Both the position numbers and the translations under genes were made by a program. 24,755 bases of DNA, taken from the IMG/VR virus record IMGVR_UViG_3300045107_000227, positions 1-24,755 of that record; one strand, 5' to 3'. Below are positions 5,369 to 19,888 of the stretch, piece after piece. This DNA comes from a virus. A model generated the notes under the pieces. It had not been told where the DNA came from. It saw only the letters and a program-made list of their open reading frames with translations, and made no database searches. Position 1 is the first letter of the stretch. Every line of letters begins with the position of its first letter.

Positions 5369-5372
5369 ACTG

Positions 5373-6913: not shown

Positions 6914-6916
6914 TCC

Positions 6917-7166: not shown

Positions 7167-7170
7167 ATGT

Positions 7171-7198
7171 TAAGAAAAGGCGTACCGCAGTACGCCTT
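7171..7198 (-). terminator. Intrinsic terminator after tRNA-like block
   Basis: - strand stem AAGGCGTAC / GTACGCCTT (9 bp) with loop TGCG, followed by TTCTT. This is the best U-tailed terminator of the region; it separates the two tRNA-like genes. Confidence 0.75.
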
Positions 7199-7247
7199 AA
7201 CCATTTAGACCCTGCTAGCAGATTTTTAGCCCCACTAGCCAGCCCGT

Positions 7248-7594: not shown

Positions 7595-7623
7595 ATTATA
7601 CGCGCACGTGCTGCGAAAAGCAA
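7595..7623 (-). promoter_or_regulatory. Promoter cassette for tRNA-like block
   Basis: TTGCTT (7623-7618), 17 bases, TATAAT (7600-7595), preceded by GGGGGG. It lies just past the stop of the gene at 7631-7879. Confidence 0.75.
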
Positions 7624-7630
7624 CCCCCCA

Positions 7631-7879
7631 TTACGGCAGTTTACTAAGACAATTTCGGATTTGCATTACCACTTCATTGGCTTTGTTAACATCATGTACC
7701 AAAGATTGGTGTGTATCAAACTCCTCAAGCGGCGCAGGTATCCCGCGGTTGTGGTAATCTTCCAGGCGGTCGGACCACCATTGCTCGTGTTGTTGTAATT
7801 CAGATTGCACGGCACGATCTGTACCAAGTTGGTTCAGGAACTCAGTACGCAATTATTCCGGGTCAATTTCTTCGGGCAT
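7631..7879 (-). pseudogene. Small gene with in-frame TAA at codon 9
   Basis: ATG 7879 has a strong AGGAGGAG ribosome site and encodes MPEEIDPE, then TAA (7855-7853), then in the same frame LRTEFLNQLGTD and on to the end at 7631 (73 further codons, helical and charged, with QQHEQWWSDRLEDYH). The codon after TAA is TTG, so re-initiation could make the 73-aa protein; otherwise the gene is broken. CAA to TAA is a single-base change. Function is unknown. Confidence 0.6.
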
Positions 7880-7894
7880 AACTCCTCCTATAAG

Positions 7895-7916
7895 AAAAGG
7901 TCCCTGAGGACCTTTT
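7895..7916 (-). terminator. Intercistronic hairpin
   Basis: 9-bp stem AAAAGGTCC/GGACCTTTT with a 4-base loop, between the stop at 7964 and the AGGAGG of the gene at 7879. The stem ends in TTTT, so partial intrinsic termination is plausible. Confidence 0.65.
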
Positions 7917-7963
7917 CAAGCAGCTTGGAACAATAGAAACAAGGGACTCGTGGCTGGGTTGGT

Positions 7964-8332
7964 TTACGCCTCGGCGACCTCAGCTTCAGAAACGGGTAAC
8001 TCGCTCACTTGGGTTTCCTGGACCGGCTTGACCCGTTTAATGCGGACAACATCCATTGCCGGAGTTTGTCCATCGGAACTGGTATCTTGATAGTAAGCGG
8101 CCATTGGTTCAAACTTGAAGGGCATACCCTCCAAAGCATTCAATAGCTCATCCTGCATTGCCTTCAAGACATCGTCACGGTTTCCGGCCCCGTCAACGGC
8201 TAACCGTTTAACTTCATAGGTAAAATTCGGGAACGTCACTACCGTACTAAATCGAAAGCCGGCTTCACCTAACTTCTGACGGATTTGCTTCGGGACCGCC
8301 GGACCCTTATCTTCAATCACTGCGACACTCAT
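7964..8332 (-). CDS. Paralog family member A, unknown function
   Basis: 122 aa with AAAGGA upstream of the start. Residues about 15-100 align by eye with the proteins at 8666-9337 and 17924-18481: an N-terminal helix (IRQKLGEAGFRF), the signature FPNFTYEVKRL, a helix (DELLNALEGMPFKFE) and a final strand (MDVVRIKRV). The acidic tail (SELPVSEAEVAEA) is low complexity. The fold is probably a small alpha/beta domain. I do not recognise the family. Having three divergent copies in one phage suggests a multi-subunit or regulatory role. Confidence 0.8.
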   Translation of the reverse strand: MSVAVIEDKGPAVPKQIRQKLGEAGFRFSTVVTFPNFTYEVKRLAVDGAGNRDDVLKAMQDELLNALEGMPFKFEPMAAYYQDTSSDGQTPAMDVVRIKRVKPVQETQVSELPVSEAEVAEA

Positions 8333-8364
8333 TCTTATATCCTTTCACTTTCAACCTTGATATT

Positions 8365-8393
8365 ATTATAACGGGTCCTTATTCAAAAAGCAA
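8365..8393 (-). promoter_or_regulatory. Promoter cassette for gene 8332
   Basis: TTGCTT (8393-8388), 17 bases, TATAAT (8370-8365), preceded by CCGGG. Confidence 0.8.
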
Positions 8394-8401
8394 CCCGGAA
8401 T

Positions 8402-8596
8402 TTAGTCAGTTACGATACGACTTTCAAAAAGCTCGGCCTCTTTGGTATCACCGCGATCACGCGCATTTTGAGCTAATTCCTTAAAAGCTTGTTGGTCCAT
8501 TTCTGCCGATATCTCGGCTACAAGTTCGGCCTCTTTCTCGGGCGTATAGGGCAAAGTTGGCTTTTCCAGCTCTCCAAACCATAACTTTAATTCCAT
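8402..8596 (-). CDS. Small acidic hypothetical protein (64 aa)
   Basis: GGGAGG precedes ATG 8596. The product is highly charged and helical (EKEAELVAEISAEMDQQAF), with a net negative charge and no known motif. It shares the transcription unit started at 9396-9424 with the gene at 8666-9337, separated from it by a hairpin. Confidence 0.7.
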   Translation of the reverse strand: MELKLWFGELEKPTLPYTPEKEAELVAEISAEMDQQAFKELAQNARDRGDTKEAELFESRIVTD

Positions 8597-8616
8597 AAAT
8601 CCTCCCGGATAAATAG

Positions 8617-8634
8617 AGAGGGCTTGCGCCCTCT
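8617..8634 (-). terminator. Intercistronic hairpin
   Basis: 7-bp arms AGAGGGC/GCCCTCT with the loop TTGC on +, the same loop as the hairpin at 5351-5368. It lies between two co-directional genes with no new promoter. Confidence 0.6.
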
Positions 8635-8665
8635 TATCACAACATTCTAAGGAGGTACTGAGGAG

Positions 8666-9337
8666 TTAGAGGACTATGTCATTCAACTCATTGGCAAATG
8701 CCGTAGCTTGTTCGGGGTCTAGAGTAGGATCGGCTTGTTCCGCATGTGCCTGACGAGCTTGGCGCATCTTGGCATTGCGGCCTACTTTTTCTTTCTTAGC
8801 CGGCTTTTCAGCGCCGTCAAAACCTTCAGTATCCTGGATTGAAGGTGCGGCAACCTTGCGGGTCGATTTCTTCATCTGGGCCAAGATATCGGTACGCTCA
8901 TCTTCAGTCAATTCATCCCAGTTCGAATGGGCTTCGCGAGCTTTGGCTTCCAGCTTCTGTGCGGCATTCATTTTGGGGGCGGCAGGCGCACGACCCGGTG
9001 CATCATAACCCTGAGCTTTAATCACGACCAAATAAGTCGCACCCGTTTCACCAAATTGAATTGTAGCATCGCCCAATCGCTTAAACTGAACCGGAAACTC
9101 ACTGAGCGAATTGATAAATGTTTCCGCCGCAGCTTTAGCGGTTTCGGCGTTCACATCAACAATTTGGCCGTCGACACTTGAATCCAATGTAACTTCGTAG
9201 CGAAAGTTCGGCGTGGTTTTAATGCGGTTAAACGCAACACCTTTACTATTGAGGTATTCGCGCAAACGCACTGGCAGTGGTCTCACTTCGGTTGTAGTCG
9301 CCGCGGCTACTGGAGCTTCATCTAACATAGCAGTCAT
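8666..9337 (-). CDS. Paralog family member B, with long basic tail
   Basis: 223 aa; AAGGAG lies about 10 bases before the ATG. Residues about 20-110 form the shared family domain (LREYLNSKGVAFNRI, then TTPNFRYEVTLD, then TYLVVIKAQGYDAPGR). The C-terminal half is unique: helical, lysine and alanine rich (KKSTRKVAAP, KPAKKEKVGRNAKMRQ), ending in an acidic helix. The basic region could bind nucleic acid. It has its own promoter at 9396-9424. No known family is recognised. Confidence 0.85.
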   Translation of the reverse strand: MTAMLDEAPVAAATTTEVRPLPVRLREYLNSKGVAFNRIKTTPNFRYEVTLDSSVDGQIVDVNAETAKAAAETFINSLSEFPVQFKRLGDATIQFGETGATYLVVIKAQGYDAPGRAPAAPKMNAAQKLEAKAREAHSNWDELTEDERTDILAQMKKSTRKVAAPSIQDTEGFDGAEKPAKKEKVGRNAKMRQARQAHAEQADPTLDPEQATAFANELNDIVL

Positions 9338-9395
9338 CTGTTTTTCTCCTTGATAATCTTTTAACCTTCATTTGGTGGAATCACCGTACGTTAGT

Positions 9396-9424
9396 ATTAT
9401 CCAACATTTTTACTAAAAAGGCAA
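9396..9424 (-). promoter_or_regulatory. Promoter cassette for gene 9337
   Basis: TTGCCT (9424-9419), 17 bases, GATAAT (9401-9396), preceded by GGGGGG. Confidence 0.75.
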
Positions 9425-9459
9425 CCCCCCGACCAATGAATTTTCAAGCAATTTCGAAA

Positions 9460-9708
9460 TCAGTTTTTAAACCGATGTAATGGAATAATGGGGTAAAGGA
9501 TCATGCCTGTAAGCGGATTGAATTCCACGAGCACACATAATGCCCCCGCAAACTCGGCAGGATTGTATTTATTCTCTTGGCATATCTGCAGAAAACGGGC
9601 ATGGGCTATTTCGCAAGTCGGTGAGACCAATGAAACGCCCCCGTTATCCTGGAATATATTGAACCATTCGAATAGGTGTGATTGTAGCGGAAAGTAATAC
9701 AGGTACAT
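9460..9708 (-). CDS. Hypothetical protein (82 aa)
   Basis: The ATG overlaps the stop of the upstream gene (TGATG at 9710-9706), so it is translationally coupled. The product is rich in aromatic and hydrophobic residues (N-terminal MYLYYFPLQSHLFEWF) with ICQENKYNPAEFAGAL in the middle. No family is recognised. It is the last gene of the unit started at 11427-11455. Confidence 0.65.
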   Translation of the reverse strand: MYLYYFPLQSHLFEWFNIFQDNGGVSLVSPTCEIAHARFLQICQENKYNPAEFAGALCVLVEFNPLTGMILYPIIPLHRFKN

Positions 9709-10019
9709 CAGAGAGACAATCCTAACACGAGTAAAGTGCCTCCGAGTTCACTGCGGACAGCATTAAAGGCAGCAATGCGAGCCTCATCGGCCGTAGCAAC
9801 TTCACCACTGCGATTGAAATGGTTGCCGTTAGTCGCGCGCCACCTCCACGGAGTATTGGGCATACCGTCGATTATTAACGGCCAAGCATTTAACTCCAAA
9901 TTAAGGATCGGAATAAGCATGCGGTAAATATTGAGCCCAGAGCCTTTAGGAATCTATTCCCATTGAGGCACCCTTAACTCAAAAGTAAAAGCAGGCGTGA
10001 ACACTGGTTTATCGGACAT
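9708..10019 (-). pseudogene. Small gene with in-frame TAG at codon 22
   Basis: ATG 10019 has GGAGGAAAC directly upstream and overlaps the previous gene. It encodes MSDKPVFTPAFTFELRVPQW plus E, then TAG (9956-9954), then continues in frame with IPKGSGLNIYRMLIPILNLE to TGA at 9708. The ATG at 9920 inside the second part has no ribosome site, and the residues before it look coding, which argues for one 103-codon gene with an amber codon. CAG to TAG is one change. Downstream residues DEARIAAFNAVRSEL look helical. Function unknown. Confidence 0.6.
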
Positions 10020-10470
10020 GTTTCCTCCGGTTCTTAAACCGGGGCTTCTGGCCCGGGAAGTCAGGACGCCACACAGCCCCAATGTTCTCTTTACCCCGTG
10101 GCTTAGGAGGCTTGGGAACTGCTGCGACGGGTAGATAGGACTGCTCCAGAGCCGACTTACGGCGAGCGTTGGCCGCGTCATCGCGGATGACAATAACCTT
10201 ACGCTCCGTAGATTCGGTCTTTTCCGGTCGAGCGGTCTTGTTAGTATCACCTAACATGCGCACTAATTGGTCGCGGGATATCATAGCCAAGGCTTGCGGG
10301 TCCGATTTAATGGTTCCTGAAACCGTATTGTCTTCACGCGGGAGACGCATCTTTTCAGTCGCTTCAGCACCTATTTGCGTATTAAGGCGACGCAGCATAA
10401 CCGCGTTATACTCCTGTTGGGCTATTCGCCGGATCGCGTCAAGCGCCTTTTCAGGCGTAGCATGGTTCAT
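10009..10470 (-). CDS. Basic hypothetical protein (153 aa)
   Basis: AAGGAG lies before ATG 10470. The N-terminal half is helical (ALDAIRRIAQQEYNAVMLRR); the C-terminal third is basic and proline rich (PKPPKPRGKENIGAVWRP, ending KPRFKNRRKHVR), suggesting nucleic-acid or protein binding in a disordered tail. It overlaps the next gene by 11 bases. Unknown family. Confidence 0.75.
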   Translation of the reverse strand: MNHATPEKALDAIRRIAQQEYNAVMLRRLNTQIGAEATEKMRLPREDNTVSGTIKSDPQALAMISRDQLVRMLGDTNKTARPEKTESTERKVIVIRDDAANARRKSALEQSYLPVAAVPKPPKPRGKENIGAVWRPDFPGQKPRFKNRRKHVR

Positions 10471-10568
10471 AGGTCACTCCTTGTGCTTGTCCAGAACAGC
10501 ACGAAACGAGGCCTCGATTTTAACAGGACCTCGTCAAAATAAGTAAATTTAGGTTTATTTGATTGGGT

Positions 10569-10895
10569 CTAATCACTGCCTACGTATTTATGGTAAGCCT
10601 CTATCAGCCCAGGGCATAATTTGATAGCATCACGCTGGGCCAATTGTTTCAAGTAAGCGATGAGATAGGCCCGGTGAAGCATAGGTCCGACACTTGGTAA
10701 TGAATAGCCGCCCTGCTCCTCGAAGGCACTCATCATGTTAACCAGGTTCTCAACGATAGCCGTCATACCGGCAACCTTGAGAAGCTCCAGCAGGCGCTCT
10801 GTATTTTCGGTCTGATTAGGAAACAATTGCGCAATTGCTTCCATGGCCTGGTCAAGTGTTGGCGCCATACCACTATCAGACGAGTTTTGCGACAT
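10569..10895 (-). CDS. Helical hypothetical protein (108 aa)
   Basis: AGGAGG precedes ATG 10895, which overlaps the upstream gene by 20 bases. The product is predicted mostly helical (LDQAMEAIAQLF, LLELLKVAGMTAIVENLVNM). It ends with TAG at 10571-10569. Beyond that TAG the frame stays open for 33 codons to a TGA overlapping the next ATG as ATGA, so a longer form by amber read-through is possible but not needed. Unknown family. Confidence 0.75.
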   Translation of the reverse strand: MSQNSSDSGMAPTLDQAMEAIAQLFPNQTENTERLLELLKVAGMTAIVENLVNMMSAFEEQGGYSLPSVGPMLHRAYLIAYLKQLAQRDAIKLCPGLIEAYHKYVGSD

Positions 10896-11388
10896 CTACG
10901 TCCTCCTTCATTTCACCAATGAGAAACAGAAAATGTCTGAGTTCATTGCGATGTTTACTTTCCTTATGTAAATCCAGCCGTCCATTGAGGTTACTAGCGA
11001 TAGCTTTCTGAACCCGAAACTCTAGCTTAGCCCAGTCCTCACGAATCTTGTCGTCACTATCGACTACGTAATCCGCGCCCTGTCGCTTGAGCTCATAAAG
11101 TCCATTCGACCATTTGTCGCGCCATTGAGCGACCATAAGCGCGACATCCGAGTCAAGTCTGTTTTGACCCGAGTAACCCATGCGTACTGCATTTAACAGA
11201 TTAACCATACGCCAAAGCCGCGTATACTGTTCATTCAAATCCGATGCTGCGGTAATATATTCTAAGCCCTGTAACAGATTAGCCCGAGCCGAATCATACG
11301 CATTCCACTTGCCGAGAAAAGATACGCGCAGTGTCTGCCATTCGATGTTATACAGGCACATCTTTTCCTTTGTCAACGTAACTTGCAC
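10876..11388 (-). CDS. Hypothetical protein (170 aa)
   Basis: GTG start at 11388 with AGGAGG six bases upstream. The product is largely helical, with many W, R and E (LWRMVNLLNAVRMGY, VALMVAQWRDKWSNGLYELK). It is the first gene of the unit from the promoter at 11427-11455. No family is recognised. Confidence 0.78.
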   Translation of the reverse strand: MQVTLTKEKMCLYNIEWQTLRVSFLGKWNAYDSARANLLQGLEYITAASDLNEQYTRLWRMVNLLNAVRMGYSGQNRLDSDVALMVAQWRDKWSNGLYELKRQGADYVVDSDDKIREDWAKLEFRVQKAIASNLNGRLDLHKESKHRNELRHFLFLIGEMKEDVDVAKLV

Positions 11389-11426
11389 TTTTGCCTCCTT
11401 GTGGGTTGATTTACTTTCCTAAATCT

Positions 11427-11455
11427 ATTATAACACCGTTTTTGACAAAAGGCAA
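11427..11455 (-). promoter_or_regulatory. Promoter cassette for 11388-9460 operon
   Basis: TTGCCT (11455-11450), 17-base spacer TTTGTCAAAAACGGTGT, TATAAT (11432-11427), with TGT giving an extended -10. This is the closest match to the cassette consensus. Confidence 0.88.
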
Positions 11456-11458
11456 CCG

Positions 11459-11748
11459 TCAGTCCTTAACGAGCTCATCCCAGCGACGTTCAATCGGGCT
11501 ATAGTTAGCAAATTGCGCCCAACCTGCCGTAGTAGCTTCGATGCACCGGATGAATGAAGTCCCGCTACACTGATTACTATATATTAAGGCACAGGCTTCA
11601 GCACCCGCTATTGTTGCACCACCCACCGGTTGTTAATAGGGGCACGAATCTCAGGAATGGTCTCCTTTAACCCTTCGACATACTCCCGCTACACGGGCGC
11701 TACACCTACGCCCGCCTTAGTAGCGGTATGGGTCGATACACATGTCAT
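11459..11748 (-). pseudogene. Small gene with amber codon and frameshift
   Basis: ATG 11748 overlaps the upstream stop (GTATGA) and has GGAGG upstream. It encodes MTCVSTHTATKAGVGVAPV, TAG (11691-11689), then REYVEGLKETIPEIRAPINN in the same frame. A second TAG follows, but the neighbouring frame (-1) takes over near 11625, in a G-rich stretch, with GGATIAGAEACALIYSNQ and on to RRWDELVKD and TGA at 11459. The two halves read as one protein of about 96 aa with two lesions. Function unknown. Confidence 0.6.
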
Positions 11749-11969
11749 ACCCAGTCCTCCAACTCTGCTACATTGTCAGGCCGAACAGTGTCATTCTGCG
11801 GCACTTGGATTATCTTAAGCGGCCTTGAGTCATTATTAGCCCGCTGCGGTGGCGTATTGCGATTATATGGCACTGGTGGTTCATAGGGCGGAAAATATGA
11901 ATCAAGTCCGCGGGCCGATTCCGCAATGCTGCGTGGCACTTCATAGTAAGCATTACGCTTCGAGGGCAT
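11745..11969 (-). CDS. Small proline-rich hypothetical protein (74 aa)
   Basis: AAAGGAGG precedes ATG 11969, which overlaps the end of the LAGLIDADG-like gene by 17 bases. The middle is proline, tyrosine and asparagine rich (YFPPYEPPVPYNRNTPPQ), probably disordered. Unknown function. Confidence 0.65.
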   Translation of the reverse strand: MPSKRNAYYEVPRSIAESARGLDSYFPPYEPPVPYNRNTPPQRANNDSRPLKIIQVPQNDTVRPDNVAELEDWV

Positions 11970-12939
11970 TGTAAGCCTCCTTTAACCGCCTTGCTAACGC
12001 GACGGTTGTCTCTCTATTACTATTACACTCCAAAAGTGTTCCAAAAGCAAGCCAGGATTCCGAACGAGCTTGCATCTCGGCGGGCGAGCGATGCTTGTAA
12101 CGCTTGTCAACGCAGTGATTCGTCAGATGTGAGCTAACATGCGTTGCCATATTCTGCTTATACTGTAAAAAGGGTCCAATTATAGCGAGAACCTTGATCA
12201 CATCTTCCCCTTTGTTTACGACATAATAGTAGGGGCTAACAGCATCACTTGCCCGGTACACAATATATCCCAGGCCAATGGTCCTAAGGATGCGACACAA
12301 TAGATCTAAATTCGAACCATACAGGCGTATAATAAAGGAACGGGGCGCGTGATGCTTAGTGATAAAAGAGTTGTGATCAAACACTGCCGCGATATACGCG
12401 AGGGGAAGTGCTTCATAACTCTTAACATCAGCGAGTTCTATCTTAGGCCGTAATTGCGCCTTAGTCTTTGGTCGGTCAACCGGAATAACAAAGGGTTCGG
12501 CCGCTTTCTGCACATGACACCATTCGGTTCTTGGGACCGCCGTAATGCCCGAATCTTTAAACAGGCGTTGCGCAATATAGCGACAAACGACTTCCAACAG
12601 ATCCCGTTTCTTTTCGGTAAAGTGTCTTGCCATAACAAACGCATATAACGAGCTTTTATTGGGTTGAACACGCAGGCAATAGGGAAACATCGGATCACGT
12701 TGTGGCACGACGGCATATCCTTGGAAATTGGCCATTAGGCGAATAAGGATGTTCTGGTCGTCGCTGGCAAAGCGGAAATAATCATTGGCGACGAACTGGC
12801 AGTTGTCGATAATTATACCAACCTCAGCCCAAGACAGGGGCTCGTACTTGGCCAATAAGAAGGCATTCCAATGTAGCGCGTTTGTATAGCGGGGGCGTCG
12901 TTCACTATAGGGTTCAACAGATGTGTCAAACTTAGCCAT
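11953..12939 (-). CDS. Degenerate LAGLIDADG-like protein, two domains
   Basis: 328 aa; the start at 12939 is preferred over 12945 because AAAGGGG then has normal spacing, and it overlaps the upstream stop. The C-terminal domain (about 175-285) reads LPLAYIAAVFDHNSFI, then FIIRLYGSNLDLLCRIL and GLGYIVYR, the layout of a LAGLIDADG homing endonuclease; the N-terminal domain repeats it weakly (WAEVGIIIDNCQF, then YCLRVQPN). The acidic catalytic residue expected at the end of each motif is Asn or Cys, so nuclease activity is doubtful; a DNA-binding role is more likely. It shares GYIV and ELLCR-type segments with the next gene. Confidence 0.55.
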   Translation of the reverse strand: MAKFDTSVEPYSERRPRYTNALHWNAFLLAKYEPLSWAEVGIIIDNCQFVANDYFRFASDDQNILIRLMANFQGYAVVPQRDPMFPYCLRVQPNKSSLYAFVMARHFTEKKRDLLEVVCRYIAQRLFKDSGITAVPRTEWCHVQKAAEPFVIPVDRPKTKAQLRPKIELADVKSYEALPLAYIAAVFDHNSFITKHHAPRSFIIRLYGSNLDLLCRILRTIGLGYIVYRASDAVSPYYYVVNKGEDVIKVLAIIGPFLQYKQNMATHVSSHLTNHCVDKRYKHRSPAEMQARSESWLAFGTLLECNSNRETTVALARRLKEAYNALEA

Positions 12940-13636
12940 TAGCATTCCCCTTTAATACGGTTAGCACTTCAGCATAAACTGGCGCTAGGTTTTTATTGGC
13001 GCTGGGCGTAACTAATTCCTTGAGAGCGATCCAAGCAGCGTTGCGGACTTGAATGGCATCCCCAACAACGTACACCCGATTTAGTACCGAAGAATACTTG
13101 TTGATAAAGTCTAGGGCCTTCTGAGCCTTAACTTTCTGCAACGTTAGCGAGGGGATGATATATTCCAGAACCTCGACTATCTCGGTGGCGCGAGTTACGT
13201 TAAATATATAATTAGAGCCCGAGTTGCGATTGGCGACTATATAGCCTACCCGCAGGGTCTTCATTAGCCGACACAATAGCTCAATATCGGAACTGTGCAC
13301 CTTTAACAATATACTTCGACTAGAGTCCACTAGGCTGATAAAGGATACGGCATCCATAATAGCGACGACTTGGGGCTGAGTATACTCCGGCACCGAATCC
13401 GGAAGCATATCCCAGGTCACATGCGGCAACTTGATAAAACGCGGTTTTGTCGCGGCTTGCTCCGCTAACTCGGTGCCTCTAGGGGGCAATACCTTGCCCG
13501 CGGCTTTTAGCTTCTTACGCTGGCGATAATTCTTGCGGTACTTCTCAAGACGGTCTAGCCCGTCGCCTTCGCCGTAGCGCAATCTTTGGTAGTACTCCCG
13601 GGCATATTGGCGCTTCTGTTCCGGTGTCCATGCCAT
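12932..13636 (-). CDS. Degenerate LAGLIDADG-like protein, basic N-terminus
   Basis: 234 aa, AGGAG about 10 bases before the ATG. Residues 1-60 are a basic helical arm (PEQKRQYAREYYQRLRYGEG, then RQRKKLKAAGK) typical of DNA-binding extensions in phage homing-type proteins. The following domain has QPQVVAIMDAVSFISLVD, SSDIELLCRLMKTLRVGYIV and YIFNVTRATEIVEVLEYI, matching the next gene's C-terminal domain. The motif's second acidic residue is Val, which argues against cleavage. First gene of the unit from 13684-13712. Confidence 0.55.
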   Translation of the reverse strand: MAWTPEQKRQYAREYYQRLRYGEGDGLDRLEKYRKNYRQRKKLKAAGKVLPPRGTELAEQAATKPRFIKLPHVTWDMLPDSVPEYTQPQVVAIMDAVSFISLVDSSRSILLKVHSSDIELLCRLMKTLRVGYIVANRNSGSNYIFNVTRATEIVEVLEYIIPSLTLQKVKAQKALDFINKYSSVLNRVYVVGDAIQVRNAAWIALKELVTPSANKNLAPVYAEVLTVLKGNANG

Positions 13637-13683
13637 TGACTATACTCCTATTCTGAATTCGCATTTACACTAATCTACTATTG

Positions 13684-13712
13684 ATTATACCATAAACGAA
13701 GCAGTAAATCAA
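13684..13712 (-). promoter_or_regulatory. Promoter for LAGLIDADG-like operon
   Basis: TTGATT (13712-13707), 17 bases, TATAAT (13689-13684), preceded by GGGGCG. The -35 differs from the TTGCC of the other cassettes. Confidence 0.75.
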
Positions 13713-13989
13713 CGCCCCATCGTAAGAAATCTCGTTTAGACGTTGTACATGCATCCATCGTCAGTATATTACGTTTGACATGCGTTTAACAAATATCAAA
13801 TAATTTTTTGTATTACGTTGGGCGGTTTTACTCCTCGAATTACAGCGTTCGACGAATTACAATTATGATTTAGACGTATTTACTGAATTCTATTATAGAA
13901 TAATAGAATTCAGTAAATACGTCTAAATTATTCATGAAAAGTTACTAAACATCGTAAATATATTATGAGCCGGAACAGTGTCAGAAATG
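13713..13989. other. AT-rich intergenic region with direct repeats
   Basis: No gene is visible in the 353 bases between 13637 and 13989. Apart from the promoter and the large palindrome it contains a repeated CGAATTACA (near 13836 and 13854), recurring TTTAGACGT (also in the palindrome arms) and an A/T tract. This combination suits a replication origin or a recombination site, which is a guess. Confidence 0.4.
13868..13928. repeat. Perfect 29-bp inverted repeat, 3-base loop
   Basis: Left arm 13868-13896 begins ATTTAGACGTATTTACTG; right arm 13900-13928 is its exact complement; the loop is AGA. It is symmetric, so it acts alike on both strands. It lacks a U-run and is AT rich, unlike the terminators here. 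Candidates are an origin, a hairpin recognised by a nuclease or an insertion site. Confidence 0.9.
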
Positions 13990-14259
13990 TTACGGTTCAT
14001 TAGGCGAATGCGAGGCGGGGGCTACCGGTTTTGGTTCGGGTGTGCTAGGCGTCGAACGCCAGATGTCCAGCAGCTTTTCGGAAGCAGCCTCTAATAAGAT
14101 AGTAATGTACAACGTCCAACATGCTGGTGCGAATATCCACCAGTTAGCCAGAGGATTGACGCAGAAGAAAGCCAATGTGATGAACCAGCCTCCGCAGAAA
14201 GATATGGTCCATAAGATTACTTTAAAGCGGGAACGGCGGTCAAGTTTATTGTTGTCCAT
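13990..14259 (-). CDS. Small membrane protein (89 aa, two TM helices)
   Basis: AAGGAG lies nine bases before ATG 14259. Two hydrophobic segments (about 14-33, VILWTISFCGGWFITLAFF, and 38-57, ANWWIFAPACWTLYITILL) with a short turn; a basic N-terminus (NNKLDRRSRFK) and a proline-rich charged tail. The size and shape fit a holin-like or other small phage membrane protein, but nothing specific identifies it. It overlaps the small hydrophobic frame upstream (14246-14392). Confidence 0.7.
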   Translation of the reverse strand: MDNNKLDRRSRFKVILWTISFCGGWFITLAFFCVNPLANWWIFAPACWTLYITILLEAASEKLLDIWRSTPSTPEPKPVAPASHSPNEP

Positions 14260-14392
14260 TGCGTGTGCTCCTTATGACTCGTAACAACAGGCCCGCAACT
14301 ACCAAGGCGGCCCGTTCGTGATTGGTAAACTTGTCGAAAACGGTAAGGTTAATTAGAACTGCACCAAGCAGTATCCACGATATAGTTATTAG
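14246..14392 (-). CDS. Possible small hydrophobic protein without ATG start
   Basis: An open frame of about 48 codons reads SWILLGAVLINLTVF, then DKFTNHERAALVVAGLLLRV, and stops at 14246 inside the next gene, a coupling-type overlap. The two hydrophobic stretches look like a membrane hairpin. No ATG, GTG or well-placed TTG is present; an ATA near 14383, about 9 bases after AAGG, is the only candidate start. Either a non-standard start or a decayed gene. Confidence 0.35.
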   Translation of the reverse strand, partial: LITISWILLGAVLINLTVFDKFTNHERAALVVAGLLLRVIRSTRNGQQ

Positions 14393-14419
14393 ACCTTGGC
14401 CCTAAAGGCCGAGGTCTAA
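14389..14419 (-). terminator. Intercistronic hairpin, 13 bp
   Basis: Arms TTAGACCTTGGCC / GGCCGAGGTCTAA (one G-U) with loop CTAAA. It covers the stop of the gene at 14416-14520. No U-run. Confidence 0.6.
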
Positions 14420-14520
14420 TCACCGAACATAATCGAACGTTTAGTTACGCGGGTGTGATAGTCATTTAAATCACTTGCGGGTGCAATCAAAACCGGCGCG
14501 TTCTCGCTTACTTCGTACAT
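14416..14520 (-). CDS. Very small protein (34 aa)
   Basis: ATG 14520 has GGAGG at normal spacing. The product is MYEVSENAPVLIAPASDLND and then a basic tail (YHTRVTKRSIMFGD). It ends in TAG inside the following hairpin. Unknown function. A longer frame opening at 14637 is disfavoured because the ribosome site points to this start. Confidence 0.6.
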   Translation of the reverse strand: MYEVSENAPVLIAPASDLNDYHTRVTKRSIMFGD

Positions 14521-14521
14521 G

Positions 14522-14611
14522 TTAGCCTCCGGCTGTGTTGACTTGACGGTCGATGTTGTTGACAATGCTGGCCGGCACCTGTCTCGCGAAAATTTGTTGG
14601 CGGTTGGCCAT
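14522..14611 (-). CDS. Possible very small protein (29 aa)
   Basis: Frame MANRQQIFARQVPASIVNNI and on to NTAGG, ending in TAA within the ribosome site of the 34-aa gene (GGAGGCTAACATG), which would couple them. No ribosome site is seen for this ATG. The frame continues open upstream to a TAG, so the real extent is unclear. Confidence 0.3.
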   Translation of the reverse strand: MANRQQIFARQVPASIVNNIDRQVNTAGG

Positions 14612-14714
14612 AGTTGTAAAAGAGAAATGCGCTTCACGGGCTATCACGCTAGCGCAGCCAATCGGCGTATTTTGCGGCTACCCGCCCCGTTTCGACTGTT
14701 CCTCTTCTGTCTTC

Positions 14715-14743
14715 ATTATACTACAGCTTTGCCGAAATGGTAC
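14715..14743 (-). promoter_or_regulatory. Variant promoter cassette for 14520/14259 unit
   Basis: GTACCA at the -35 place (14743-14738), 17 bases, TATAAT (14720-14715). The spacer TTTCGGCAAAGCTGTAG resembles that of 15092-15120. The -35 is weak. Confidence 0.55.
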
Positions 14744-14842
14744 GCCCCGCAACGCACTAATTTTATGTTTGTTTCAAACATTCACTAGCATCGTACAGCT
14801 TTTTTAACGAGCTATAGCAATCTGCAGCTTAGCGCATGTTCG

Positions 14843-14884
14843 CTTGTTAGCGATTGTTATATCGCGTCTATGCGCATGGTAACG
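14843..14884 (-). repeat. Imperfect direct repeat, copy A
   Basis: Shares CTTGTTAG, GTTATA, CGCGTCTA and ATGG (as read on +) with 15218-15262 in the same order and spacing (three-base gap). On the - strand each copy holds TAGACGCG followed by a TATAAC that could act as a weak -10. A shorter relative with GCGTTATAGC is at 15131-15143. Confidence 0.65.
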
Positions 14885-14907
14885 AGCTAGCTGCGTTAAG
14901 CTAAACA

Positions 14908-15084
14908 TAAGAAAAGACGTGTGATCGCGAGTGCGAACGGGGGAGGAGGGAGAGGGAGGGGGGGGGTAACGCCCGTACCGGCTGCCCGCGACTGTTACAA
15001 CGAAACAGCCCACGTCACTGCCGCTCAAGGGGCTCCCGCCTGGCGCCGTTACACGCCTGTGCCCCGCGCTACTGTACGTAACGG
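14908..15084 (-). ncRNA. Candidate structured non-coding RNA
   Basis: A promoter (15092-15120) points into about 350 bases with no supported gene. From the predicted start near 15084 the RNA can form CCGTTAC / GTAACGG (7 bp) at its 5' end, then CTGTT/AACAG and GGCTG/CAGCC, and a long-range GACGTG (15016-15011) / CACGTC (14921-14916) followed by TTTTCTT near 14908, a plausible terminator. It includes the C-rich complement of the G-tract. The 3' end and function are inferred. Confidence 0.45.
14939..14966 (+). other. G-tract with G-quadruplex potential
   Basis: G5, A, G2, A, G3, AGA, G3, A, G9 on the + strand: four or more runs of three G with short loops, in a genome with no other tract like it in this window. 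On the - strand the transcript would carry the C-rich complement. Confidence 0.75.
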
Positions 15085-15091
15085 ATGTCTT

Positions 15092-15120
15092 ATTATACCA
15101 CATCTTGCCGTAAATGGCAA
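15092..15120 (-). promoter_or_regulatory. Promoter cassette for candidate ncRNA
   Basis: TTGCCA (15120-15115), 17 bases, TATAAT (15097-15092), preceded by GGG and the 12-base palindrome CCGCAATTGCGG (15122-15133), a possible operator. Confidence 0.8.
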
Positions 15121-15217
15121 CCCGCAATTGCGGACGCGTTATAGCCGACGCGATATAAGGCGTTTTAAGGCCTCTGTTTAAGCTCAAGCGTACTAAACTA
15201 CGCAAACAAAAATACCA

Positions 15218-15262
15218 CTTGTTAGAACGCGTTATAGCGCGTCTACGCAGATGGCAGCAACG
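15218..15262 (-). repeat. Imperfect direct repeat, copy B
   Basis: Second copy of the 14843-14884 repeat. On the - strand TTGCTG, 18 bases, TATAAC gives a weak promoter-like arrangement. The two copies bracket the promoter and the candidate RNA. Confidence 0.65.
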
Positions 15263-15280
15263 GGTGAGTGGTGTAAATGA

Positions 15281-15300
15281 GGGCTAGCTTTTGCTAGCCC
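15281..15300 (-). terminator. Hairpin after gene 15312-15530
   Basis: Perfect 8-base arms GGGCTAGC/GCTAGCCC with a 4-base loop, 12 bases past the stop. The downstream - strand reads TCATTTAC, a poor U-run. Confidence 0.6.
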
Positions 15301-15311
15301 TTAGTCTGAAC

Positions 15312-15530
15312 CTAATTACGCGATTCACGATAAATATCGAAATCCTCCTGGACATCATTCGCATCTTTGAATTGATTCCAATATCCGAAACCATCCTGAT
15401 GCTCGGCCTCATCTACGTATTCATTCACCAAATCCTCATAGCCTGGGTTATTGGCTCGTAAGGCCTGGACTAACATTTCCCCATGCTCGCTGCGTTTGGG
15501 TGTTACATCGTCTTCGTGAATGTCTGACAT
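15312..15530 (-). CDS. Small acidic hypothetical protein (72 aa)
   Basis: AGGAGG lies before ATG 15530. Very acidic (MSDIHEDDVTPKRSEHGEM, then NEYVDEAEHQDGFGYW), a DNA-mimic-like composition, though the small size and lack of homologs known to me make that speculative. Second gene of the unit from 15804-15832, after a hairpin. Confidence 0.7.
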   Translation of the reverse strand: MSDIHEDDVTPKRSEHGEMLVQALRANNPGYEDLVNEYVDEAEHQDGFGYWNQFKDANDVQEDFDIYRESRN

Positions 15531-15567
15531 CTTGAAACCTCCTGTATAATAATAAATGGTTAGGGAA

Positions 15568-15588
15568 CCGCGTACTATTTGTACGCGG
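15568..15588 (-). terminator. Hairpin carrying a stop codon in its loop
   Basis: 8-bp arms CCGCGTAC/GTACGCGG; the TAG stop of the gene at 15575-15763 lies in the loop. A downstream gene follows without a new promoter. Confidence 0.65.
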
Positions 15589-15763
15589 CTAATTCGAAAA
15601 TAACTTCGAATTCATTGTTCTCAACTTGAACCAAGACATGTTCGAATTGAGTTTTGTTTTCGTAAGCTTCCGCGAAAGCAACAGCTTCGCTTTCAAATTC
15701 AAAACCAACTTCAGCGATAACTTCGGAAACAGATTTGATGATAACAGTGAAAAAATTGTTCAT
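15575..15763 (-). CDS. Small hypothetical protein (62 aa)
   Basis: AAGGAG precedes ATG 15763; the longer frame to 15904 would include the promoter. The product (MNNFFTVIIKSVSEVIAEVG, with EFESEAVAFAEAYENK) is acidic with alternating strands and helices. It has a strong promoter and ribosome site and so is likely well expressed. Unknown function. Confidence 0.7.
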   Translation of the reverse strand: MNNFFTVIIKSVSEVIAEVGFEFESEAVAFAEAYENKTQFEHVLVQVENNEFEVIFELAAYK

Positions 15764-15803
15764 TTTGATTTCTCCTTTTTGTAATGTCTTATCTTCTGAT
15801 TTA

Positions 15804-15832
15804 ATTATAACACCGATTTTGGTTTTTGGCAA
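15804..15832 (-). promoter_or_regulatory. Promoter cassette for 15763/15530 unit
   Basis: TTGCCA (15832-15827), 17 bases, TATAAT (15809-15804), TGT extended -10, preceded by CCGGC. Confidence 0.85.
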
Positions 15833-15871
15833 GCCGGGAAGCAAGCCAGTTTTGAAAATTGGGAGCAAAAG

Positions 15872-15898
15872 AAAAGAGCCCGGGCGGTGGGCTCTTTT
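15872..15898 (-). terminator. Intrinsic terminator after gene 15927-16253
   Basis: 10-bp stem AAAAGAGCCC/GGGCTCTTTT, 7-base loop, then CTTTT on the - strand. The symmetric A/T ends could allow use from both sides. Confidence 0.8.
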
Positions 15899-15926
15899 CG
15901 ACACATATAGGAGGTGTGGCTATAGT

Positions 15927-16253
15927 CTAGTGGCCCTTGGATAGTAAAAGGGCACTCACAGCCGGCCAATCGTACGCGGGATTCATTAGTACGCCTTCTA
16001 TCCGGCTATCACGGGCAGTAATGCGCCCAACCTCAGTTCCGTTTTCTAAACAGAATACCAGGCTGTCACCTTCATCCAGCCGCATCGTGGTGCCGCCTTC
16101 AGAATGAGAGCCTTCACCTACAGCAATGCGTACCAAGCTATCGTTCCAAGGTTCTAAAGTGACATGTAGCTCGCGGTTGCCTGTAAAGATATTAAAGTGT
16201 TTAGGCTCGGTCATAAGCGCAGTTATGGTCCGGCTGTGATATTCATTCGCCAT
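15927..16253 (-). CDS. Hypothetical beta-rich protein (108 aa)
   Basis: AAAGGTAAGCGAG precedes ATG 16253. Alternating short strands (HFNIFTGNRELHVTLEPW, SLVRIAVGEGSH, DSLVFCLENGTEVGRI) suggest an all-beta fold. Single-gene unit bounded by promoter 16295-16323 and terminator 15872-15898. No family is recognised. Confidence 0.75.
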   Translation of the reverse strand: MANEYHSRTITALMTEPKHFNIFTGNRELHVTLEPWNDSLVRIAVGEGSHSEGGTTMRLDEGDSLVFCLENGTEVGRITARDSRIEGVLMNPAYDWPAVSALLLSKGH

Positions 16254-16294
16254 CTCGCTTACCTTTCGTCTTCGCCAACGTTCCGTCGGAATCT

Positions 16295-16323
16295 ATTATA
16301 CACCCAGTTTTCAAAAATGGTAG
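16295..16323 (-). promoter_or_regulatory. Variant promoter cassette for gene 16253
   Basis: CTACCA at the -35 place (16323-16318), 17 bases, TATAAT (16300-16295), preceded by CGGG. The same TACCA variant occurs at 14715-14743. Confidence 0.65.
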
Positions 16324-16443
16324 CCCGCAGTTTTGCAAAAGCAGCAGCAATTTCGCATTGCCAAAAACGCGATTTTAGCTAGTTATTTTTGTATTCAAAG
16401 AACATGTTATATTTCGGGATCGTAGCAACATTTGCGAAAATAA

Positions 16444-16485
16444 ACTGCTAGCTAGCGCAAGATGCTGCTTGATATAGCTAGCAGT
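16444..16485 (-). terminator. Intrinsic terminator after RNase H unit
   Basis: 11-bp arms ACTGCTAGCTA/TAGCTAGCAGT with an inner CAAG/CTTG pairing, followed on the - strand by TTATTTT. It lies about 70 bases past the stop at 16555. Confidence 0.75.
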
Positions 16486-16554
16486 AATTAGGGGCCTTAA
16501 CGATAGTTTTTATTGCGTGGTTTCAGTTGCGACACTGTCGCCGTTCCGAAAGGC

Positions 16555-16932
16555 TTACACGGCCGCAACAGCTTCGACATAATCTTCGCGGTCTTTTTTG
16601 TCGTATACGGCTTGGTAATAACCAACTTCGGATACACCAAACGAATTGGCCCACAGCCACAGTACGTTAGCTGGGCCACCGAATAGCACTAGGGCGCTAG
16701 CCTGCCTAGGTTCGGTATGCTCCCCGGTTGGCATAGCCCTTGGTTCTTTCAAGGCAACAGTTGCCGTTAGGAACTTTTCGCCCGTAGGGCTAGTAGTCTT
16801 TCCGAAGCTAATTTCGCCGATATTGCCGATATCCAACATCATGTTTGGGGAAACTTTAAGCTTGTCAGGGTTCAGCTGATTCGCCTTAATGGCCAAATAG
16901 TCGCACCGAATTGTCGCGACTATGCCATGCAT
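16555..16932 (-). CDS. RNase HI C-terminal part in +1 frame, or separate protein (125 aa)
   Basis: The frame opens at ATG 16932 inside the RNase H gene. Its first residues include IRCDYLAIKANQLNPD, which closely matches the C-terminal motif of bacterial RNase HI (RCDELA), including the catalytic Asp that the RNase H frame lacks. So this frame is probably the continuation of RNase HI, reached by a +1 shift or separated by an indel near 16915. The rest (GNIGEISFGKTTSPTGEK, ALVLFGGPANVLWLWANS) is an unknown beta-rich extension. No ribosome site is visible before 16932. Confidence 0.65.
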   Translation of the reverse strand: MHGIVATIRCDYLAIKANQLNPDKLKVSPNMMLDIGNIGEISFGKTTSPTGEKFLTATVALKEPRAMPTGEHTEPRQASALVLFGGPANVLWLWANSFGVSEVGYYQAVYDKKDREDYVEAVAAV

Positions 16933-17296
16933 AATTAACTTGCCGAAACTTCATAGTTAGTGATTGACATTTGGCATGAAGGATTTTCATGCGCATATGT
17001 TTTACTTGGTACTCGCCTTTTAACTGTTTGATGACCAACTCGCTATCACCGAATACTGCGATTGTAGTGTCAGCGGGATTATGGCCGGCAATCATCATAA
17101 TCTCATCCAGCTTTTGTAAGGCCCGGACTAATGCTTCATATTCGGCCTGATTATTAGTCATCGCGGAAACAAAGTCGATAGGGCCTTCCAGCAGCTGGCG
17201 CCCGGCAGCCGTTTTGATTTCAAAGCTGCCATAGCCACGCCCCGGATTTGCGCCCCTGGTACCGCCATCAAACGTGATAGTGTAATCTGCTTCCAT
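16886..17296 (-). CDS. rnhA: Ribonuclease HI, catalytic core, truncated in frame
   Basis: 136 aa; GAGGT precedes ATG 17296. Asp10 in ITFDGGTRGANPGRG, Glu52 in MTNNQAEYEAL and Asp84 in VFGDSELVIK match the RNase HI catalytic residues that cleave RNA in RNA-DNA hybrids. The fourth residue should follow in the last helix, but this frame ends WHSRDNSVRLFGH. The +1 frame carries it (see 16555-16932). As annotated, the enzyme would be inactive without frameshifting. Second gene after the repeat-disrupted gene at 17337-17613, across a hairpin. Confidence 0.85.
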   Translation of the reverse strand: MEADYTITFDGGTRGANPGRGYGSFEIKTAAGRQLLEGPIDFVSAMTNNQAEYEALVRALQKLDEIMMIAGHNPADTTIAVFGDSELVIKQLKGEYQVKHMRMKILHAKCQSLTMKFRQVNYAWHSRDNSVRLFGH

Positions 17297-17310
17297 AATT
17301 AAACCTCATG

Positions 17311-17330
17311 CAGGGGGCCGAAGCCCCCTG
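17311..17330 (-). terminator. Intercistronic hairpin with UUCG loop
   Basis: 8-bp arms CAGGGGGC/GCCCCCTG and a TTCG loop on the - strand, an unusually stable tetraloop, just before the ribosome site of the RNase H gene. Confidence 0.7.
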
Positions 17331-17336
17331 GTGCCC

Positions 17337-17613
17337 TTAGTATCCGCCAGTTAACTTGTGACCGCCTTGATAGATAGCAACTATTCGGTTGCCATTGTCA
17401 AGGTCAACGACGTGATACGTTTGGTCGGGGTGAATGTGTGACTGTTCTATTGCGTAAATGTTCTATTACGTAAATGTTCTATTGCGTAAATGTTCTATTA
17501 CGTAAATGTTCTATTGCGTAACTCTTTGCTGGGTCATAGGTGCGGAACTTACGCCCCTTTACCGGGTAACGTTTGTGAAGAATTCCGAATGGATCATTGT
17601 TGTCTTTTGGCAT
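17337..17613 (-). pseudogene. Small gene disrupted by 16-bp repeat expansion
   Basis: ATG 17613 has AAGGCGG upstream and encodes MPKDNNDPFGILHKRYPVKG and on to DPAKSYAIEH, then enters five 16-bp repeats and meets TAG at 17481-17479. With a single repeat the frame would continue AIEQSHIHPDQTYHVVDLD and on to GGHKLTGGY, TAA at 17337, a 70-aa protein. Because 16 is not a multiple of three, expansion broke the frame. The frame to 17661 starts at the transcription start and is not used. Function unknown. Confidence 0.7.
17442..17521. repeat. Five tandem 16-bp repeats
   Basis: On the - strand the unit is TTACGCAATAGAACAT, alternating with TTACGTAATAGAACAT (C/T at position 6), five copies, the last ending in G. 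The alternating variants suggest duplication of a two-unit block. There are no spacers, so this is not a CRISPR array. Confidence 0.95.
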
Positions 17614-17640
17614 TGTGGTTACCGCCTTGAATGTGTTGCT

Positions 17641-17659
17641 GAAGTACCAACGGTACTTC
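17641..17659 (-). promoter_or_regulatory. 5'-terminal mRNA hairpin
   Basis: GAAGTACC-GTT-GGTACTTC, starting about 8 bases after the -10 at 17672-17667, so it would sit at the 5' end of the transcript. The same stem sequence occurs after the 18554 promoter. Confidence 0.6.
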
Positions 17660-17666
17660 ATAATTT

Positions 17667-17695
17667 ATTATACACCAGATTTGGCAAGGAGGCAA
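17667..17695 (-). promoter_or_regulatory. Promoter cassette for 17613/RNase H unit
   Basis: TTGCCT (17695-17690), 17 bases, TATAAT (17672-17667), preceded by GGGGG. Confidence 0.85.
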
Positions 17696-17710
17696 CCCCC
17701 AATTTAAAAT

Positions 17711-17857
17711 CTATCCGCCAAACCAATGATCACGGCAACGACACGAACCGTCATGTCCATCTTGCAAAATACAAGGTCGGCTGCATAGGCAGACTCCACT
17801 GCATTGACCTACCAATTCTAAAGCCCAACGGAACAATTTGTAAGTAGCGACTTTCAT
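17711..17857 (-). CDS. Small cysteine-rich protein (48 aa)
   Basis: GAGGAGACC precedes ATG 17857. After MKVATYKLFRWALELVGQ come six cysteines in CSGVCLCSRPC and SCRCRDHW, with a His, a pattern that could bind zinc or form disulfides. It is absent from any family I know. It follows the paralog at 17924-18481 across a palindrome and ends in TAG just before the next promoter. Confidence 0.6.
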   Translation of the reverse strand: MKVATYKLFRWALELVGQCSGVCLCSRPCILQDGHDGSCRCRDHWFGG

Positions 17858-17878
17858 AAGGTCTCCTCGGCAAGTGAC

Positions 17879-17905
17879 TAGGTGACAGATTTAATCTGTC
17901 ACCTA
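17879..17905 (-). terminator. Perfect intercistronic palindrome
   Basis: 12-bp arms TAGGTGACAGAT/ATCTGTCACCTA with a 3-base centre. It lies between the stop at 17924 and the ribosome site of the Cys-rich gene. No U-run, so processing or stability is as likely as termination. Confidence 0.6.
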
Positions 17906-17923
17906 ATGATTAAAATGGGTTAA

Positions 17924-18481
17924 CTACGCGACGGCTTCTTCAACCTTTTTCGACTTGCGAACGCGTTTTGGTTTTGCAACCACTTCCGCGCTAGCCGCAA
18001 CTTGTGAGTCAATTTCTGTAACCGCGGCTTCAGTCATCGGTTCGGTAACCACTTCCGAAAAGACCGGTACTTGGTTGACCGTTTCAGCGATACTGGCTAA
18101 GCTTACACCAGCTTCGTTGAAATCGTGTTGTAATTCTTTCAAGCTACATGGTTTCGGTTTGGCTACGCGCGTTGGTGCGGTGTAGCCTTTAGCTGACAAC
18201 CGAATCACGATACACTCACTTGTCACACCAGCTTTGGTAATTTCTTGAACCTGAGCCTGACCGACCCTAATGTTCGCGACTGTAAAAGTTTCGAACGCTT
18301 CGACCAAGTCCAGATGCAATTGTGTACCAAGTTCGTCAGTGTCGGCACCTTCTGAAATCTCAAAAGCGGCGTCATAACGAAAGTTTGGATTGGTGCGTAG
18401 TGCGTACAAGTTGATGTTCTTGACCGCCAAGAAAGCGCGAATAAGTTCCGGCAACGGTTGATTGGTGTTTTCAGTAATCAT
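17924..18481 (-). CDS. Paralog family member C, unknown function
   Basis: 185 aa; AGGAGG before ATG 18481. Residues about 9-105 match the family at 7964-8332 and 8666-9337: IRAFLAVKNINLYAL, TNPNFRYDAAFEI, a helix LHLDLVEAFETF, and a last strand ECIVIRLSAKGYTAP, close to the VVIKAQGYDAP of member B. The C-terminal third is acidic and then basic (AKPKRVRKSKKVEEAVA). First gene of the unit from 18554-18582. Confidence 0.82.
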   Translation of the reverse strand: MITENTNQPLPELIRAFLAVKNINLYALRTNPNFRYDAAFEISEGADTDELGTQLHLDLVEAFETFTVANIRVGQAQVQEITKAGVTSECIVIRLSAKGYTAPTRVAKPKPCSLKELQHDFNEAGVSLASIAETVNQVPVFSEVVTEPMTEAAVTEIDSQVAASAEVVAKPKRVRKSKKVEEAVA

Positions 18482-18523
18482 GATGACCTCCTAATAATGT
18501 GTCTTGTGTTGTTATTGTCGTTT

Positions 18524-18546
18524 GAAGTACGGCTCTTCGGTACTTC
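18524..18546 (-). promoter_or_regulatory. 5'-terminal mRNA hairpin
   Basis: GAAGTAC / GTACTTC arms (7 bp) around CGAAGAGCC, at the predicted transcript start, with the same stem as 17641-17659. Confidence 0.55.
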
Positions 18547-18553
18547 TGAATCT

Positions 18554-18582
18554 ATTATACCACCGAATCTGGTTAAAGGCAA
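18554..18582 (-). promoter_or_regulatory. Promoter cassette for paralog C unit
   Basis: TTGCCT (18582-18577), 17 bases, TATAAT (18559-18554), preceded by CCGGC. Confidence 0.85.
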
Positions 18583-18590
18583 GCCGGACT

Positions 18591-18992
18591 TTAAGCCAAT
18601 TTAGAAACTGGAACACCGTGTTCTTTTTGGTTATTGGTGTTCTCGAGCACCGCCGTATCGTACAGCCTCTGGATCATGCTAGCCATACGGACTCTTTGTT
18701 CCGAGGTAAGTTTGGTATCTAGGTGGATAATAGCCGCAGCCTGGTCACATGCTCTTCCAGGTGCCGTATACCCATAGGCCATAAATAACATATGGTATTC
18801 ATATCCCGTCAAATGTAAGGCCACGGCCAACTGTTTCACTACGTCGAAGCTTGGCTGGCGGGCGCCGGACTCAATCTTCTTGTAGAAGCTTTCGCTAATT
18901 CCGGCCGCTTCGGCGCAAGCTTCTTGGGAACTAAATAGCTCTGTCCGCCACATACGTAACAGGGCCGTACCTTTCAATTTATGTGATACCAT
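18591..18992 (-). CDS. XRE-family helix-turn-helix regulator
   Basis: 133 aa. The start at 18992 is set by GAGGAAAA; the frame to 19043 lies inside the upstream gene. Residues about 9-60 form the Cro/C1-type HTH: a helix LLRMWRTELF, then SQEACAEAAGISESFYKKIE with the typical IESGARQPS turn, then a helix VVKQLAVALHL. The C-terminal part is helical (SEQRVRMASMIQRLYD). It probably binds DNA as a dimer and regulates phage promoters. Lysogeny control is possible but no operator is identified. Last gene of a four-gene unit with the zinc ribbon at 18979-19239. Confidence 0.85.
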   Translation of the reverse strand: MVSHKLKGTALLRMWRTELFSSQEACAEAAGISESFYKKIESGARQPSFDVVKQLAVALHLTGYEYHMLFMAYGYTAPGRACDQAAAIIHLDTKLTSEQRVRMASMIQRLYDTAVLENTNNQKEHGVPVSKLA

Positions 18993-19239
18993 CTTTTTCC
19001 TCGCAATACATTGCCCAACATCCGGGCGTAATATCGGCCGCAATCTTTACAGTTGGTTGAACGGTTTCTTCCTCCGGGTTATATTTGAACCTAGGACGTC
19101 GACAGCCTGTGCATTTATACAAACCTGGGCCCTTAGGTCGTCCTGAGGAAAGGAATGTCACCAGATTGACTGTTTGGCATTGAGGACATTGCCAGCTTCT
19201 TTTGCCGGGAATATTCGGTACAACTTTAAGTACTTCCAT
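18979..19239 (-). CDS. Zinc-ribbon protein (86 aa)
   Basis: GGAGGT precedes ATG 19239. Cysteine pairs CPQC (18, 21) and CTGC (43, 46) about 22 residues apart define a zinc ribbon (KRSWQCPQCQTVNLVTF, GPGLYKCTGCRRPRF). A C-terminal tail carries two further Cys. It overlaps the XRE gene start by 14 bases, so the two are likely co-expressed and may act together. Confidence 0.75.
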   Translation of the reverse strand: MEVLKVVPNIPGKRSWQCPQCQTVNLVTFLSSGRPKGPGLYKCTGCRRPRFKYNPEEETVQPTVKIAADITPGCWAMYCEEKDGIT

Positions 19240-19596
19240 TTAGACCTCCGGCCACGACATTTCGTCGTCGGCATCAACTTCTATACCTTCGCTATTTTCG
19301 CGTAATACACTTTCTAGTACGTCCAGCAAGTCTAGACAAACCAAAGACGCCCACGCCTGCAAAGCTCGGATTTCATCCTCTTTATCGGTTTCGAAATAGT
19401 AAACTTGGCCACCATCTAAGCTGGTGTGATAGTTTCTATACCAGACCTGGGCGGTTTCTTCCTCTTCGTTAAACCAAACTTCGACAACCTGACGCAGGTC
19501 AATGGCGTGCTTACCGATCCTTAGCATTGCGTTACCGATGTTAAGAGCCGGCCGAGCAGCATAAGCGTCGGGAACGGGCGGGTAAATATTTTCGAT
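19240..19596 (-). CDS. Acidic hypothetical protein with ATC in start position
   Basis: The frame extends above the ATG at 19527, which has no ribosome site, up to an ATC at 19596 placed four bases after AGGAGGTCCT. It would begin (M)ENIYPPVPDAYAARPALN and join MLRIGKHAIDLRQVV in the same frame, giving 118 aa. Either ATC is used as a rare start or ATG was mutated. The remainder is acidic (WFNEEEETAQVWYR, SEGIEVDADDEMSW). Its stop abuts the ATG of the zinc ribbon. Confidence 0.65.
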   Translation of the reverse strand: MENIYPPVPDAYAARPALNIGNAMLRIGKHAIDLRQVVEVWFNEEEETAQVWYRNYHTSLDGGQVYYFETDKEDEIRALQAWASLVCLDLLDVLESVLRENSEGIEVDADDEMSWPEV

Positions 19597-19610
19597 AGGA
19601 CCTCCTAAAG

Positions 19611-19637
19611 TTAGTTGGATCAGAACGATCCAACTAA
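19611..19637 (-). terminator. Hairpin overlapping a stop codon
   Basis: 11-bp arms TTAGTTGGATC/GATCCAACTAA with a 5-base loop holding part of the TGA of the gene at 19620-19820; then CTTTAGGAGG, the next ribosome site. Confidence 0.65.
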
Positions 19638-19820
19638 CTTGTTGTTTTCGATTTTAGTTATCGTGGTAAACTCAGTTTCACCAAAGGCACGTTTAGCTAG
19701 AACCAAACTAGCACCATTAGCCAAAGCAGCTTTCTTGTTAGCGAGATACGCGTTTTCAGCTTTGAAATAGTTAGTGCTTGCTTCAATTACGACTTTGTTC
19801 AGGATTGTGTAGAAACCCAT
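19620..19820 (-). CDS. Small hypothetical protein (66 aa)
   Basis: AAAGGAGG precedes ATG 19820. Alanine-rich helical product (NYFKAENAYLANKKAALANG, ending TTITKIENNKLVGSF). First gene of the unit from 19860-19888. Like the gene at 15575-15763 it is short, strongly signalled and terminates in a hairpin loop. Unknown function. Confidence 0.7.
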   Translation of the reverse strand: MGFYTILNKVVIEASTNYFKAENAYLANKKAALANGASLVLAKRAFGETEFTTITKIENNKLVGSF

Positions 19821-19859
19821 GATTGCCTCCTTTGTGTGTTTGTTTTTGCTCGATACTTA

Positions 19860-19888
19860 ATTATAACACAAAACTTGGAAAAAGTCAA
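19860..19888 (-). promoter_or_regulatory. Promoter cassette for 19820/XRE unit
   Basis: TTGACT (19888-19883), 17 bases, TATAAT (19865-19860), TGT extended -10. Best -35 match to the sigma70 consensus among the cassettes. Confidence 0.85.

Follow-up and report, generated by a model that had tools for sequence, protein, structure and literature searches.

Does the number of repeat units in a short phage gene switch that gene on and off, or has the repeat broken it? The question is raised by a tandem array on the minus strand of the window (the whole stretch of DNA analysed, 24,755 nucleotides from a linear viral record), for which an earlier note had proposed that copy number toggles the gene, as in contingency loci. 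The array, the reading frames on its two sides, possible relatives and the surrounding genes were analysed; the array and the gene that holds it, with its signals, lie on the minus strand.

Structure of the tandem array

The array occupies positions 17443–17521 and comprises 4.94 units of the 16-bp sequence TTACGYAATAGAACAT. Read along the coding strand, the units are of two types, TTACGCAATAGAACAT and TTACGTAATAGAACAT, with C and T alternating at one position in the order ABABA. Two methods agreed on this description: (i) TRF placed a 16-bp unit, repeated 4.9 times, at 17443–17521 with a score of 144, which far exceeds that of every other array in the window; and (ii) a motif search found 5 matches in register, whereas 100 shuffled sequences yielded 0.42 on average and never more than 2. 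The 16-bp tandem repeats inside a gene, with their C/T alternation, are thus as first described.

In principle, five near-identical units could serve as DNA-binding sites (iterons or operators) that lie within a gene by chance, and iterons within a phage gene have a precedent in the lambda origin, where they are located in O (PMC5043065). The palindrome TTACGTAA in the B units and the spacing of like-typed units, which are 32 bp or about three helical turns apart, are in line with such a role. Plasmid iterons, however, are generally in helical phase (PMC5043065), whereas adjacent units are here 16 bp apart and out of phase, and near-phase spacing is reached only between alternate units. No copy of the unit was found outside the array in the window record or in the sibling record described below, and no initiator-like gene was recognised when the neighbours of the array were scanned. 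The composition showed no origin-like feature at the array, neither a strong skew turn nor an AT-rich stretch. Overall, a binding-site function is unlikely, although of the alternatives considered here it is the least improbable.

The interrupted gene

With a single unit, the flanks of the array join into one gene with its ATG at 17613 and its TAA ending at 17337; the interval delimited in the earlier note (17337–17613) corresponds exactly to this stop and ATG. The array separates a 5′ part (17522–17613; MPKDNNDPFGILHKRYPVKGRKFRTYDPAK plus the first two bases of the next codon) from a 3′ part (17337–17442; SHIHPDQTYHVVDLDNGNRIVAIYQGGHKLTGGY followed by TAA). An independent start of the 3′ part was excluded, as its frame contains no ATG, GTG or TTG downstream of the array.

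The model used to score codon usage of the two parts had as its training set the remaining phage genes, which were picked by eye from the lists of open reading frames and did not include the disrupted gene. The scores were 0.121 for the N part and 0.111 for the C part. Off-frame stretches that were open and reached such a score made up just 0.9% (for the N part) and 0.8% (for the C part), the control consisting of stretches inside genes rather than intergenic DNA, and 21–26% of true coding stretches scored equal or lower. Both flanks look coding-like, in exactly the frames joined by one unit, as is the case for a disrupted gene. The array therefore probably sits within a formerly single open frame that is broken by the length of the array.

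The gene is preceded by a Shine-Dalgarno-like sequence (AAGGCGGT, 17621–17628) 7 nt before the ATG, by a stable hairpin (TGAAGTACC/GGTACTTCA, 17640–17660; folding z −3.1) at the predicted 5′ end of the transcript, and by a promoter-like TTGCCT-17-TATAAT (17667–17695). Directly past the TAA, a GC-rich hairpin was folded (AGGGGGC-TTCG-GCCCCCT, 17313–17330). On the basis of the promoter-like site, the upstream hairpin, the Shine-Dalgarno-like site and the codon usage, the small gene looks real.

Reading frames at different unit numbers

The frames were worked out for 0–8 units. One unit yields an open reading frame of 70 residues, and three or more units yield 44 residues terminated by TAG, which bears out the earlier claim that copy number sets the frame. 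Two points had been absent from that claim: zero units also join the flanks in frame (65 residues), and two units give a frameshifted reading frame of 53 residues, which is off without TAG. With 4 or 7 units the length restores the frame, yet TAG lies inside. Translated, the five-unit sequence starts at the ATG, crosses two units with the frame shifting from one to the next, and stops at the TAG in the third unit (17479–17481), and the C-terminal 34 residues are lost. The TAG of the array is unremarkable and points to no special design, because a stop would arise in one frame or another from 58% of 16-mers drawn at random from this phage.

An alternative genetic code or TAG suppression was rejected, since several other genes here end in TAG, and for the same reason general readthrough of TAG in this phage is unlikely. 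Readthrough at five units would, moreover, still miss the frame of the C part.

The truncated 44-residue protein could itself be the functional product, the 3′ part being a dead remnant. The promoter-like site, the hairpin, the Shine-Dalgarno-like site and the N part are all intact, and the truncated form is the consensus of both assemblies; the residues just before the stop are, however, merely coded by the array, and the coding-like look persists in the 3′ part. We regard a functional short product as improbable.

Relatives and copy number

The record IMGVR_UViG_3300045256_000087 (31,353 bp) covers positions 1–19888 of the window with one SNP (at 6670) and contains five units in the order ABABA. 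This sibling record may come from the same site as the window, and its five units are therefore weak evidence on variation: the copy number is five in 2 of 2 assemblies, possibly from one site. That the true genome has fewer units and the array is an assembly artefact is very unlikely. Both sequences are indeed metagenome assemblies, but the two records, one SNP apart, agree on five units and on ABABA, and common short reads are longer than 79 bp, so that the 79-bp array fits within them.

The joined 70-residue protein matched the sibling record alone among viral contigs, gave no match in genomes or the PDB, and found nothing credible among phages (best E 6). A hit to Pfam DUF1811 (E 0.013) fell short of the cut-off of that family and was set aside. 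Relatives sought via the RNase H gene, the gene at 17924–18481, the terminase and the DpdA-like gene yielded no copy of the disrupted gene; beyond the sibling record, none was found in 46 viral records linked through terminase or RNase H. The one-unit form was not found among relatives, the sole one found being the same virus with five units. Scanning viral and genome contigs depended on an exact 8-residue match, which distant relatives would escape, and the absence of relatives therefore says little. Since no homologue was found beyond this virus, a one-unit ancestor and a real 70-residue protein are argued for solely from composition and gene signals.

Outside the window, positions 4826–9362 of the sibling record carry genes whose translations, judged by eye, look like QueD, QueE, FolE, a class II glutamine amidotransferase, QueC and a DpdA-like protein. 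This gene set suggests, from its sequence, 7-deazaguanine modification of the phage DNA.

Promoter-like sites and neighbouring genes

The promoter-like site of the disrupted gene (17695–17667) belongs to a family of about 11 TTGC(C)-17-TATAAT sites on the minus strand of the window, with −35 elements starting at 20733, 18582, 17695, 15832, 15120, 11455, 8393, 7623, 7020, 6509 and 5214. The sites are strong and sigma-70-like, often in a GGTTGCC...CGGTGT context, and a further member lies at 1359 (plus strand) of the sibling record. A twelfth pattern match, at 1634, falls inside a gene and seems fortuitous; the opposite (plus) strand has a single loose match. Together these sites may mark the transcription units of the phage. 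The disrupted gene seems to lead one such unit, with an RNase H-like gene next (16886–17296; Pfam RVT_3), then a gene at 16555–16932; the following promoter-like repeat is at about 16283–16333.

Several other features of the window were recorded. Three apparent paralogues (7964–8332, 8666–9337 and 17924–18481, minus strand) share a PNFxY-type motif, noted by eye; the one of them that was scanned (17924–18481) had no match in PHROG or Pfam. An IS200/IS605-type TnpA and TnpB pair is present at 3641–5194 (minus strand), the TnpB sharing 64% identity with a TnpB encoded by a Candidatus Chlorohelix allophototropha (Chloroflexota) plasmid, which is a weak hint at the host. The sequence at 7248–7315 (minus strand) is tRNA-like (Rfam, 44.8 bits): its acceptor and T arms are good and its anticodon region is shortened. 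A standard anticodon arm could not be recognised in it, and it was not called by ARAGORN. A near-perfect inverted repeat with 32-nt arms and a 3-nt loop occupies 13865–13931, in the intergenic stretch after 13636.

Switch or broken gene

In a contingency locus, slippage would alter the number of units, and the 70-residue protein would be on at one unit and off at two or more. The array has several properties of such a locus: it is a tract in a reading frame with a unit that is not a multiple of three, it lies within a gene bearing promoter-like and Shine-Dalgarno-like signals, and one unit restores a coding-like frame. Tandem 16-bp units can also contract, so that passage from OFF to ON via deletion is possible. 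Reversible slippage, however, calls for several ON copy numbers, and here ON is one unit or none; an ON genome thus has nothing to slip, and because it keeps no tandem repeat, passage to OFF would need a fresh duplication. This structural argument is stronger than the agreement of the two assemblies. Four and seven units, though in frame by length, contain TAG, and both assemblies have exactly five units. In addition, according to a paper on phase variation, imperfect VNTR-type tracts have not been tied to it, owing to lower mutation rates (PMC6321876).

What stands of the proposed switch is therefore the array within a probable former gene whose frame is broken by the array length, as the coding-like flanks indicate; the toggling is unsupported. 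Reversible switching is unlikely, and we give a contingency locus little credence. A one-way release by slippage, in which rare contraction of the five-unit OFF state to one unit would give a minority of progeny with the 70-residue protein, appears more doubtful still. Most probably, the locus holds no on/off switch but simply a broken gene.

History of the array

The bases at the junctions of the units carry traces of how the array arose. All 4 internal junction positions have T, and both outer flanks have G, which simple duplication would have left at the junctions. Units 2 and 4 share a C to T change. Both shared substitutions must predate the last expansion, and the array therefore most likely grew stepwise, as judged from the sequence. 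With one unit, two AGT trinucleotides stand at a distance of exactly 16 bp, as would be the case at about 5% of sites by chance, and this 3-nt microhomology is a plausible seed.

We consider it probable that a small phage gene of no assigned function was inactivated by stepwise slippage expansion of a 16-bp segment. The ancestor would have had one unit and a product of about 70 residues. A slip between the two AGT would have duplicated the segment, after which the junction base may have changed from G to T and one unit from C to T. Larger slips of 32 bp would then have amplified the array to ABABA; the order of these steps is suggested by the shared substitutions. The outcome would be truncation or loss of function, present as the consensus of both assemblies, rather than a working switch. 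Besides the lack of a homologue outside this virus, one observation counts against this explanation: the C part is still open and coding-like even though the array is old enough to have acquired the two shared substitutions, which could hint at some selection to keep the C part or at rapid evolution of the array.

If the gene is broken, the locus is an example, from an uncultured phage, of a minisatellite growing step by step, and the gene leading the unit with the RNase H-like gene is one that the phage can do without. Variation of copy number in the population would make the locus a rare instance of a phage gene that varies through repeats.

Comparison with known systems

The iteron array of the lambda origin likewise consists of short repeats clustered in the coding DNA of a phage (gene O). 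Here, in contrast, the units are directly spaced at 16 bp and have no other copies, no initiator was recognised, and the array breaks the gene that contains it. With the contingency loci of Haemophilus, Neisseria and Campylobacter, in which simple sequence repeats cause translational phase variation, the locus shares a repeat within the reading frame and a copy number that sets the frame; it differs in its imperfect 16-bp units, in being ON at one or zero units with no reversible series, and in the lack of copy-number variation among the two assemblies. Frameshift mutations by tandem duplication, which arise by slipped-strand mispairing at short direct repeats, resemble the locus in a unit that is not a multiple of three, microhomology at its ends and a truncated product. 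Whereas those mutations involve one duplication, the array described here would have passed through several rounds of expansion, marked by the substitutions that its units share.
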